From: Bacteroidetes bacterium GWA2_40_15
Lineage (GTDB): Bacteria > Bacteroidota > Bacteroidia > Bacteroidales > VadinHA17
DNA length: 64,000 bases
Direction: 5' to 3'
NCBI GenBank assembly: GCA_001768195.1
Contig: MENI01000053.1
Span: 1-64,000, forward strand
Position numbers and translations under genes: made by a program
The notes under the pieces: generated by a model
Database searches by the model: none
Seen by the model: the letters and a program-made list of their open reading frames with translations, nothing else
Told to the model about the DNA's origin: nothing
In this document: positions 22,653 to 41,550 of the stretch, piece after piece
How the letters are laid out: every line of letters begins with the position of its first letter
Numbering within the stretch: position 1 is the stretch's first letter

Positions 22653-23936
<1,284 letters not shown>

Positions 23937-23940
23937 GTAA

Positions 23941-23962
23941 GTGCCACGCCATGGCGTGGCAC
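23941..23962. repeat. Perfect 22-base palindrome after eno
   Basis: Half-site GTGCCACGCCA followed at once by its complement TGGCGTGGCAC, with no loop. It begins four bases after the eno stop and can act as a terminator hairpin. It shares the CCATGG centre with the palindromes at 23983 and 41523. Confidence 0.85.
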
Positions 23963-23982
23963 TACACGCATTATATGAATTT

Positions 23983-24010
23983 GTAGGGTCATGCCATGGC
24001 ATGACCCTAC
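23983..24010. repeat. Perfect 28-base palindrome, GGGwCATGCC family
   Basis: Half-site GTAGGGTCATGCCA followed by its exact complement. Nearly identical to the 28-base palindrome at 41523-41550 (one base different per arm) and similar to the one at 32292-32319. Confidence 0.9.
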
Positions 24011-24102
24011 TTTAATATTATATCCCGTCTTATTTTCCGACGTTATTAACAATTGTTGATAACTATTGTTTATATCAGGTTTACAACAAGGAGTGTAAAT
24101 CT

Positions 24103-24133
24103 ATTGTTTTTTTGTATTCCAGATGTAAATTTG
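24103..24133 (+). promoter_or_regulatory. Promoter of the noncoding locus
   Basis: ATTG at 24103-24106 (TTG matching the -33 box), a 19-base spacer, and TAAATTTG at 24126-24133, which fits TAnnTTTG at every fixed base. Predicted start of transcription is near 24140. No reading frame of any length starts downstream, so the promoter appears to serve an RNA. Confidence 0.75.
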
Positions 24134-24139
24134 ATTCAT

Positions 24140-24625
24140 CAGGTGAGCGATAAAAGACTGCTCGAAAGATGTGGAGAAGGAAAAGGTAACTTAATTGAAA
24201 CAAGATCCTTCTCGGTCAGACCCTCGGGTCTGCACACCAGGAGAGCCAAAGTCTGAACTGAGGGGCTCCGCGCCCCCGATGTTCAGAAGATCACCGAAGA
24301 TCGGAAACGTTCTTTCAGCGATTGAGTCACAGGGCTTCAGAAAATGAAGGGCTTCGGTCAATGGTTATCTGAAACTGATGCCACTTCCTTCGGGAAGCGT
24401 GCAAAAGAGCCTGAATGACACTTTGTCCCGGAAGTCCCTCCGTAAGGCGGGATAAAAGGACAGCCGGAAGGTTTTGTTGTAACAGACTTTACCCGAAAGC
24501 CATGGGTTGCAGACTGATCTAGCATCATGCTCAGCAGCCGGTCAGAATAACAGTAATCTGACATCGTAAGCAGCTTCGGTTGTAAACGGTGGATGGGAAC
24601 TACTCCTAGCGATTAGTTCCCATTA
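24140..24625 (+). ncRNA. Candidate structured RNA, about 485 nt, unassigned
   Basis: The stretch between the promoter and a strong terminator has no coding frame on either strand, is richer in G+C than the surrounding spacers, and holds many exact stems: GAGAAGGA/TCCTTCTC (24174-24181 with 24206-24213), CAGACCC/GGGTCTG (24217-24232), CTGAAC/GTTCAG enclosing GGGG/CCCC (24254-24286), ACCGAAG/CTTCGGT (24293-24299 with 24352-24358), CTTCA/TGAAG (24335-24349), CTTCC-TTCG-GGAAG (24385-24398), TGTCC/GGACA (24424-24462), GTCAGA/TCTGAC (24541-24562), and CAGC-TTCG-GTTG (24571-24582). It lacks the conserved boxes I know for RNase P RNA, tmRNA, SRP RNA and 6S RNA. Role unknown. Confidence 0.72.
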
Positions 24626-24640
24626 TTGTTTTATATATAT
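24593..24640 (+). terminator. Terminator of the noncoding locus
   Basis: Ten-base-pair perfect stem ATGGGAACTA (24593-24602) / TAGTTCCCAT (24614-24623) with an 11-base loop, followed by the T-rich TATTGTTTTATATAT. Ends the predicted RNA about 100 bases before the next gene. Confidence 0.82.
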
Positions 24641-24693
24641 CTCATTATTACCTCTTTTTAACACTCCCGTCAAAAAAGTATGACCATATTGAA

Positions 24694-24701
24694 TATCTTT
24701 G
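24694..24701 (+). promoter_or_regulatory. -7 box upstream of the UbiD gene
   Basis: TATCTTTG, a full TAnnTTTG match, 26 bases before the start codon. No clear TTTG box 19-21 bases further upstream. Confidence 0.6.
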
Positions 24702-24726
24702 CATTTCATTTGGACCAATTATCATA

Positions 24727-26631
24727 ATGGCATATTCAGGACTCGCAGATTTTATAAAAATGCTTGAGAAGGGAAATGAGCTGATTAGCATTGATCAGTT
24801 TGTTAATCCCTTGCTGGAGATCACCGAAATAACTGACCGCATTTCAAAACAGAATGGCAAGGCATTGCTCTTCAGGGATACCGGTACCAGATTTCCACTT
24901 CTTATTAATGCCTATGGCTCGGAAAGGAGGATGTTGCTGGCTTTAGGCAGGGGAAATTTCGATGAAGCCGGTGCCGAGATTGAATATATCTTTAACAGGA
25001 TGTCCGATAATCAGGGCTCTCTGATAAATAAAATGCTTCTGCTCCCTGATCTTATTAAAATGGCAGGGGTAATGCCCTCAAAATCACGAAAAAAGGGAGT
25101 CTGTCAGGAGGTGATCAATATGAATCCTGATCTGAGTATCCTTCCGGTTCTGAAATGCTGGCCTCACGACGGAGGAAGATTTATAACCCTTCCTATGGTA
25201 CATACCGTACATCCTGAAACAGGGAAGTCAAATGTGGGGATGTACAGGATGCAGGTGCTTGACAATAGTACTACCGCCATGCACTGGCAGCGCCATAAAA
25301 CAGGAGCAAATCATTTCGAAGCCTGGAAAAAATTAAACAGGAAAATGCCGGTTTCTGTTGCTCTGGGTGGTGATCCGGTGTACGCCTATTCAGCTACTGC
25401 GCCTCTTCCTGAAAATATCAATGAATATATACTTGCAGGATTTCTCAGAAAGAAAAAAGTCAGGCTCGTTAAATGCATAACAAACGATCTGTATGTACCT
25501 TCCGGTGCTGATATAATACTCGAAGGCTATGTTGATCCGGCAGATGAACTTGTATGGGAAGGACCATTTGGCGATCATACCGGATTCTACTCTCTGGCCG
25601 ACTGGTATCCGAAATTTCATTTAACCTGCATAACTTATTCCGGAAAAGCAGTCTATCCGGCAACAATTGTCGGAATACCTCCGCAGGAGGACGCATGGCT
25701 GGCCAGGGCTACCGAGAGGATCTTTCTGGCTCCGGTAAAAATGACTCTCCAGCCGGAAATTGAAGATTTCCATCTTCCTGAACCGGGAGTTGCCCATAAC
25801 CTGATGATTGTGAAAATCAGAAAAAGTTATCCGGGACAGGGAATGAAGGTTTTAAGCTCCCTTTTTGGCACAGGGCAGATGATGTTTACCAAATACCTTG
25901 TGGCAGTAAGCGGCGATATTGATATCAGGAATTACATGGAGCTTTTTATCCACGTATTTAATAATACTGATTTCAGTAAGGATCTCTTATTTTTCAGGGG
26001 ACCTCTTGATGTTCTTGACCACGCTTCTGATGCATTTTCTTTTGGAGGCAAACTGGGCGTTGATGCTACTGTTAAAATGACTGAAGAGTCCCTGGGCAGG
26101 AAGAAAAATCATCCTGCGCGATATTCAGATCTGTTTCCCGGAATTAAAGATTTTCTGGAGAATAGTACTATTTATAAATATAACCTTGATCTTTTAAGGA
26201 ATGATATACCTCTTTTAATACTTTCAGTGGACAGGACCCGGGATGCGGATATAATTCAGAAAGTAACAACGCTTCAGGGTTCTGACAGATTATCAGAGTT
26301 TTTCAGGATTATACTTGTTGTCGACCATACAGTTGACACCGGCGATCTTTTTACTGTGGCATGGCAGGTTCTTGGTAATTCCGATCCTCAGAGGGATCAT
26401 TTATTTATTTCCGACTCTTCTGTGTTGATAGATGGTACTATAAAAGCTTTCAGAAAAGGAGGTTTTCCAAGGAAGTGGCCGAACATAGTATGTTCAGATA
26501 ATGAAACAATTGCTTCTGTAGATCAAAAATGGAACAGCCTCGGGTTAGGGCAGTTTATACCTTCTCCTTCTATTAAATTCAGGACTTTGTCACGTATCGG
26601 GAAAGATGAAATATCCATGCTATCCGATTGA
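24727..26631 (+). CDS. UbiD-family prenyl-FMN decarboxylase
   Basis: 634 residues. UbiD enzymes remove or add CO2 on aromatic or unsaturated acids with prenylated FMN. The Mn/prFMN site is visible: MYRMQVLDNSTTAMHWQRHK with Arg 174, and EGPFGDHTGFYS with Glu 278 and Asp 283. The Asp in the second acidic position follows the 4-hydroxy-3-polyprenylbenzoate branch rather than the Glu of fungal Fdc. At 634 residues it is longer than E. coli UbiD (497), as in the menaquinone-related group. No UbiX (cofactor maker) or quinone gene is nearby, so the substrate stays open; a menaquinone-pathway role is possible. Confidence 0.88.
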   Translation: MAYSGLADFIKMLEKGNELISIDQFVNPLLEITEITDRISKQNGKALLFRDTGTRFPLLINAYGSERRMLLALGRGNFDEAGAEIEYIFNRMSDNQGSLINKMLLLPDLIKMAGVMPSKSRKKGVCQEVINMNPDLSILPVLKCWPHDGGRFITLPMVHTVHPETGKSNVGMYRMQVLDNSTTAMHWQRHKTGANHFEAWKKLNRKMPVSVALGGDPVYAYSATAPLPENINEYILAGFLRKKKVRLVKCITNDLYVPSGADIILEGYVDPADELVWEGPFGDHTGFYSLADWYPKFHLTCITYSGKAVYPATIVGIPPQEDAWLARATERIFLAPVKMTLQPEIEDFHLPEPGVAHNLMIVKIRKSYPGQGMKVLSSLFGTGQMMFTKYLVAVSGDIDIRNYMELFIHVFNNTDFSKDLLFFRGPLDVLDHASDAFSFGGKLGVDATVKMTEESLGRKKNHPARYSDLFPGIKDFLENSTIYKYNLDLLRNDIPLLILSVDRTRDADIIQKVTTLQGSDRLSEFFRIILVVDHTVDTGDLFTVAWQVLGNSDPQRDHLFISDSSVLIDGTIKAFRKGGFPRKWPNIVCSDNETIASVDQKWNSLGLGQFIPSPSIKFRTLSRIGKDEISMLSD

Positions 26632-41526: not shown

Positions 41527-41550
41527 GGACATGCCATGGCATGTCCCTAC
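41523..41550. repeat. Perfect 28-base palindrome supplying two stop codons
   Basis: Half-site GTAGGGACATGCCA followed by its complement. The TAG at 41524-41526 ends the phosphatase on the plus strand and the TAG read from 41549 to 41547 ends the convergent synthase on the minus strand. Can form a hairpin in either transcript. Confidence 0.9.

Follow-up and report, generated by a model that had tools for sequence, protein, structure and literature searches.

What lies between eno and ubiD in the window, by which we mean the whole stretch of 64,000 nucleotides analysed here, is the question that this locus raises. The gap holds a Bacteroidota promoter, a noncoding RNA of about 490 nt and a terminator (24104-24632), and the comparison of related sequences makes it almost certain that this RNA represents a real structured RNA family of Bacteroidota. 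Our main reading goes further and joins two statements, namely that the RNA is a member of an uncatalogued standalone family and that it acts in trans as a scaffold or sponge; we give the two together a probability of about 35%. The locus is laid out as follows.

22659..23936, + strand: eno (enolase), upstream neighbor in the genus, with Pfam domains Enolase_N and Enolase_C
24104..24133, + strand: Bacteroidota-type promoter, with the -33 TTG at 24104-24106, 19 bases, and the -7 element TAAATTTG at 24126-24133
24138..24632, + strand: RNA gene; its transcript, with the start placed from the promoter and the end from the terminator, is predicted to be about 490 nt long
24592..24632, + strand: intrinsic terminator, hairpin 24592-24624 (helix 24592-24605 / 24611-24624) and TTTT at 24629-24632; helix 23 of the 31-row fold
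24727..26631, + strand: gene for a UbiD-family decarboxylase (Pfam UbiD), downstream neighbor in the genus

An earlier note, made from the letters of the DNA, had proposed a promoter of TTG, 19 bases and TAAATTTG, and these elements are present at a position relative to the first helix of the RNA, P1, that is conserved across the family. Among 145 family rows, which were not filtered on the promoter and from which 10 rows judged to be chance matches and one row with a short upstream region had been excluded, TAnnTTTG lies at most 16 bases before P1 in 118, compared with 3 of 979 control positions further upstream. The gap from TAnnTTT to P1 is 5 nt in 82 rows, 6 nt in 46 and 7 nt in 2 of the 130 rows that have TAnnTTT, and a TTG near the -33 spacing accompanies it in 118 of these 130, a count that stands without a control. 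Because the -7 box keeps a fixed distance to P1, transcription is predicted to start at or close to P1, where it should start in the window as well. The proposed terminator is likewise borne out, its helix (24592-24605 / 24611-24624) being followed by TTTT and covered by the 31-row fold, and the three UUCG loops that had been noticed start at 24353, 24389 and 24575. The space after eno has a feature of its own: palindromes with the core CAYGCCATGGCRTG occur in the window at 23940-24012, where two lie adjacent downstream of eno, and at 41530-41543. Such palindromes are found at 21 places in the genome, compared with 0 for the reversed control pattern, contigs C40, C77 and C97 likewise carrying two of them 47-48 bases apart, and they are probably a dispersed palindromic repeat family.

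The region had also been called noncoding, which agrees with what we found. Its two open reading frames (67 and 68 aa) have no Pfam match at E<=0.01, and 594 of the 610 gap runs in the 31-row alignment, counted per row and not independent of each other, have lengths that three does not divide. The 31 aligned rows do contain stretches of 71-153 codons free of stops. We rejected a protein-coding gene on the grounds that the short frames lack Pfam matches and the alignment gaps break the frame.

The evidence for structure comes first from close relatives. The window RNA has a folding energy of -169 kcal/mol, below that of all 100 of 100 dinucleotide shuffles (z -3.5). The alignment consists of 31 full-length relatives, 30 of the window's genus and one (L055) from another family, and supports one multibranched fold that runs in the order P1, conserved internal loop, P2, arms A-E, P3 with a UUCG loop, and terminator. 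The parts upstream of the terminator are these.

24139..24144, + strand: 5' strand of P1, the helix that closes the molecule at its predicted 5' end; partner strand 24556-24561
24145..24155, + strand: conserved core loop, 5' strand, GAGCGATAAAA, consensus of 134 distinct rows
24156..24159, + strand: 5' strand of P2, partner strand 24540-24543; 100% pairing and compensated changes in the 31 rows
24160..24246, + strand: domain A, a junction that bears the hairpins 24174-24213 and 24217-24232 (helices 3-7)
24248..24424, + strand: domain B, the largest arm (helices 8-16), of which about 24274-24419, or a somewhat larger stretch, is absent in L045
24425..24461, + strand: domain C hairpin (helices 17-18)
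24463..24500, + strand: domain D hairpin (helices 19-20)
24505..24539, + strand: domain E hairpin, adjoining P2 (helix 21)
24544..24555, + strand: conserved core loop, 3' strand, AGAATAACAGTA, conserved among relatives
24556..24561, + strand: P1, 3' strand, with covariation in the 31 rows and family-wide
24562..24591, + strand: P3 hairpin, UUCG loop in the window (helix 22), from comparison of relatives

Compensatory changes, which the earlier note had named as a check on its proposal, are present in this alignment: both partners have changed at 55 of the 111 pairs, compared with 23.5 in shuffles, and 0 of 500 shuffles reach 55. Paired cells make up 96.9% of 3427 (91.9% in shuffles), and there are 181 cells with both-side changes, compared with 49.7 in shuffles and at most 42 in slid structures. 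None of the 500 shuffles attains any of the five covariation measures; the fold was derived from the same alignment, which gives it an advantage over its slid versions, and the shuffles ignore relatedness. Sequence is conserved in loops and junctions as well as in helices, a pattern that fits contacts with protein or tertiary contacts. One detail of the earlier reading did not hold. It had ACCGAAG at 24293 pair with either of two copies of CTTCGGT, at 24352 and 24573, as a sign of alternative folds or a pseudoknot; the second copy starts at 24574, and of the 31 relatives just 1, namely the window itself, can form the pairing. The consensus fold places each CUUCGG in a hairpin, as its closing pair and UUCG loop, and alternative folds through ACCGAAG are thus not supported. 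A relative in the same genus (L045, positions 1500-1910) lacks the interior of arm B, corresponding to about 24274-24419, while both flanks match; as read from its sequence, it is a natural domain deletion in which roughly the interior of this arm has been lost and the rest kept.

Beyond the genus, the family has constant ends and a variable middle. The ends comprise the 5'-terminal P1, an internal loop rich in A (GAGNGAUAAAA / ANAAUAACNGUA), a 3' hairpin whose loop is often UNCG, and the terminator. L046, from another family, matches the window RNA at its two ends only, and the distant loci that we read share the boxes GUGAGNGAUAAAAG and GUCANAAUAACNGUA, with differing middles between them. 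For the family core, 156 unique box pairs yielded 141 rows past a filter that requires a promoter-like motif and 134 distinct rows, with two rows judged to be chance matches (L208, Veillonella, and L089 at position 670) retained among the 141, which should lower the pairing scores. P1 is paired in 98.1% of cells over the 134 rows (shuffles at most 91.9%) and has 95 both-side cells, compared with at most 43 in 500 shuffles; sliding reduces pairing to at most 50.6%. P2 does not rise above shuffles family-wide, with 77.2% of cells paired (shuffles up to 77.5%) and 22 both-side cells (shuffle mean 21.1). When slid by -1 to -3 it gives more both-side cells (28-36) and far fewer pairs. The window RNA has the P1, core loop, 3' hairpin, terminator and promoter distance that define the family, and it scores 76.6 bits with R1, a 3'-domain model built from the 30 rows of alignment A1, which include the window sequence and in which several terminators are shifted.

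These constant ends allowed us to follow the RNA through the phylum. Within the genus, a DNA search detected it in 33 of 37 genomes, counting the window's own, and beyond it in 1 of 24 genomes of the order's other families; in the window's genome it is single-copy at E<=1e-3. A search that started from L046 matched 30 of 295 genomes of the order at E<=0.01, a number that includes chance matches. R1 matched at least 88 of 393 genomes and at least 48 of 206 genera of the order, at least 28 of 395 genomes of a class sample (the window's included), at least 4 of 395 of a phylum sample, all of the same class, and, in the family to which Algoriphagus belongs, at least 14 of 41 genomes, each from a different genus. 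These counts are lower bounds, with 10 candidates scored per genome for order, class and phylum and 97 for the Algoriphagus family. A scan of genome contigs with the 5'-box pattern gave 111 stretches, in 85 of which R1 finds the 3' domain; 5 of these 85 (L135, L150, L154, L166 and L167) are contigs used for R1, so the test is partly non-independent, and some of the R1-negative stretches run past the end of the fetched DNA. Of the pattern stretches, 13 have titles that name other phyla (Enterococcus, Acinetobacter, Veillonella and others); the single R1-positive one among them is a metagenome-assembled genome (MAG) titled Chlorobiota, in which the genes next to the RNA fall into clusters with those at Bacteroidales loci. 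The carriers that have names belong to Algoriphagus, Cyclobacterium, Aquiflexum, Cognataquiflexum, Mariniradius, Marivirga, Roseivirga, Pleomorphovibrio, Pararhodonellum and Lunatibacter, and many Bacteroidales and Flavobacteriales MAGs join them, cultured species being included among the carriers.

Most R1-positive genomes of the order have one match (77 of 88), and 11 have two. Several genomes carry two RNA genes about 0.5-2 kb apart (L067, L140, L152, L173, L177, L179, L185 and L203). In L067 (1195-2110), two near-identical copies, each with its own promoter and terminator, lie 484 bases apart, and pairs spaced more widely were seen in Aquiflexum, Cognataquiflexum and a Cecembia MAG. In seven genomes of the order (G043, G160, G211, G258, G1095, G1157 and G1166) the two R1 matches are on separate contigs, and these may be RNA paralogues.

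The genes beside the RNA change with lineage. In the genus, eno is present on the expected side in 27 of 30 loci and ubiD in 26 of 30, several of the others being cut by contig ends; neither was found beside L046. A survey of 65 RNAs at 60 loci, taken from the first 80 of the 111 pattern loci with a simple open reading frame finder, revealed no constant neighbor gene, the largest protein cluster covering 8 loci and the next 7. Since no cluster exceeds 8 loci, the RNA is not bound to a particular operon. As for a mobile source, BLASTN of the window RNA gave no match to phage and plasmid records, and none of six viral contigs with the 5' pattern, the one pattern scanned, had an R1 match, their sequence looking coding-like by eye. 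On these few searches we set aside a phage, plasmid or viral origin.

The middle of the RNA accounts for its range of sizes, the spacing between the two boxes running from 122 to 567 nt across the family. In the short form of Cyclobacteriaceae there is one module, RAAGG-hairpin-YUGAGACGG-GNAA-CCGCAGAA, closed by an outer stem. At a box spacing of 195-206, exactly one module is present in 29 of 31 RNAs and none in 2; at 514-523, two to four modules are recognized by pattern in 5 of 7 RNAs, these five being the ones from Algoriphagus, and four can be read by eye in L080. Short and long forms differ in spacing by about 315 nt, a difference that three modules of 100-110 nt would account for. Both forms occur within Algoriphagus, A. 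aestuariicola having the short one and A. boritolerans, A. lacus and A. aquaeductus the long one, and the middle of the Algoriphagus RNA appears to hold a three-way-junction module once or in as many as four copies. The fold of the module comes mainly from an outer stem read by eye and without a shuffle control (GCAC/GUGC, GCAU/AUGC, GAUGC/GCAUC, GAAC/GUUC), and the folding energy of its consensus is only -4.98. On inspection by eye, long forms from the other lineages showed no internal repeats; with such repeats seen in Algoriphagus alone, the module argument is an argument from one genus.

Comparison with known RNA families supports the view that this one is uncatalogued. Searching the whole window with the 4227 covariance models of Rfam 15 gave 0 matches at the gathering score, and the seven weak hits at E<=10 in 23900-24800 do not overlap the RNA. 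In 20 related loci one hit appeared at E<=1, to Chlorobi-1; it falls within the L059 RNA and scores 20.3 bits against a required 50. The search of Rfam that had been suggested as a check thus returned no match at any family's cut-off, in the window or in the 20 related loci. The early impression that the RNA is neither RNase P RNA nor tmRNA also stands. Both resemble it in being standalone, chromosomal and similar in size, with ends that pair, and differ in being encoded elsewhere in the same genome, class A RNase P RNA (RF00010) at C30:24327-24717 with 239.3 bits and tmRNA (RF00023, also ARAGORN) at C110:93000-93414; neither has a match in the window. Sponge RNAs of the CsrB/RsmZ type carry repeated protein-binding modules in one RNA, in varying copy number; the window family differs from them in that no Rfam family matches, that its module is a three-way junction and that its core is unrepeated. 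Other RNA candidates from comparison of Bacteroidota are 6S-flavo, Flavo-1, Bacteroides-1, Bacteroidales-1 and Bacteroid-trp, the Bacteroidetes motifs to which the table of a survey of 104 candidates gives Rfam accessions (PMC2864571). The window RNA differs from these in matching none of the Rfam 15 families. Bacteroides-2, for which the survey's table gives no accession, lies outside this comparison. A literature search, with a 2017 survey of 224 candidates, supplements and bioRxiv preprints beyond its reach, yielded no description of the window RNA, and, at a guess, it would be rather surprising if the RNA had been described outside Rfam before. The earlier note had seen a candidate for a new class here, and that proposal has gained from what followed: the RNA stands alone between a promoter and a terminator of its own, falls into no Rfam family, covaries, and occurs in many genera with no constant neighbor.

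How might such an RNA work? Its standalone signals, constant core, conserved loops and multiplied modules together fit a trans-acting, protein-binding RNA. The constant core (P1, loop and P2) would be bound by a putative protein common to the carriers, the arms would supply one or several further binding surfaces, and the RNA would in this way scaffold or sequester several protein copies, so that the long forms, to judge from their repeats, may bind protein at several sites. We hold the scaffold or sponge mechanism tentatively, and the conserved loops would suit catalysis or tertiary contacts between RNAs equally well. A more specific version, which we regard as somewhat more doubtful, is a housekeeping-like ribonucleoprotein of Bacteroidota in which a conserved putative protein would recognize the constant core, lineages would graft different or multiplied three-way-junction modules onto it, and module copy number would tune how many proteins are bound. 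We know of no bacterial RNA family in which bound proteins are tuned by the copy number of modules on a constant core.

Large RNAs can also form ornate complexes from RNA alone, folding by themselves and making dimers or cages through loop contacts. GOLLD, ROOL and OLE are reported to form homo-oligomers without protein (PMC12286853), and they resemble the window RNA in being large, standalone and multi-armed, with conserved loop nucleotides and no clear function. By this analogy an RNA-only complex would suit the many arms and the many conserved loop nucleotides seen here. We nevertheless consider it unlikely: the smallest members of the family, with 122-150 nt between the boxes, are small for a cage, the RNA reaches no Rfam family's cut-off, and the few searches made found no phage, plasmid or viral carrier. 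The window RNA further differs from those three in belonging to Bacteroidota and in having constant ends and a variable middle that is repetitive in one genus. OLE, GOLLD and ROOL are also longer than the window RNA.

A global regulator of transcription in the manner of 6S RNA or Ms1, in which the closing helix and internal loop would bind RNA polymerase, is improbable. The terminal closing helix with its conserved internal loop speaks for it, as does the usual single R1 match per positive genome. The 6S models RF00013 and RF01685 find no 6S RNA in the window or in the rest of its genome; however, RF00013 is also blank in nine other Bacteroidota genomes, of which G095 and G200 are R1-negative, and in the control Bacteroides ihuae. 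With RF00013 blank in all 10 Bacteroidota genomes and RF01685 run on the window's genome without a positive control, the missing 6S RNA says little. The loop here lies 6 bp from the end and the remainder is multibranched, an architecture unlike that of 6S RNA. About equally improbable is a ribozyme, or an RNA that forms part of an enzyme after the fashion of RNase P; the highly conserved nucleotides of internal loop and junctions and the standalone gene would agree with it, but the middle differs so strongly between lineages that a common catalyst could reside in the small core only, and RNase P RNA itself is encoded elsewhere in the genome. A cis-acting leader of ubiD or trailer of eno, suggested by the position of the RNA between these genes in the genus, is hardly credible for an RNA that has its own promoter and terminator, that lies beside neither gene in L046 and that has other neighbors in other lineages.

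Returning to the trans-acting scaffold or sponge, the novelty of the finding lies at the level of the RNA family, and its mode of action may be a known one. The varying number of modules offers a natural series from which the role of the module could be learned. Few large structured RNAs have persisted through long stretches of evolution, and most of those that are understood have turned out to be important. The carriers of this one include cultured species, so that harmless strains make its partner and its function accessible to testing.
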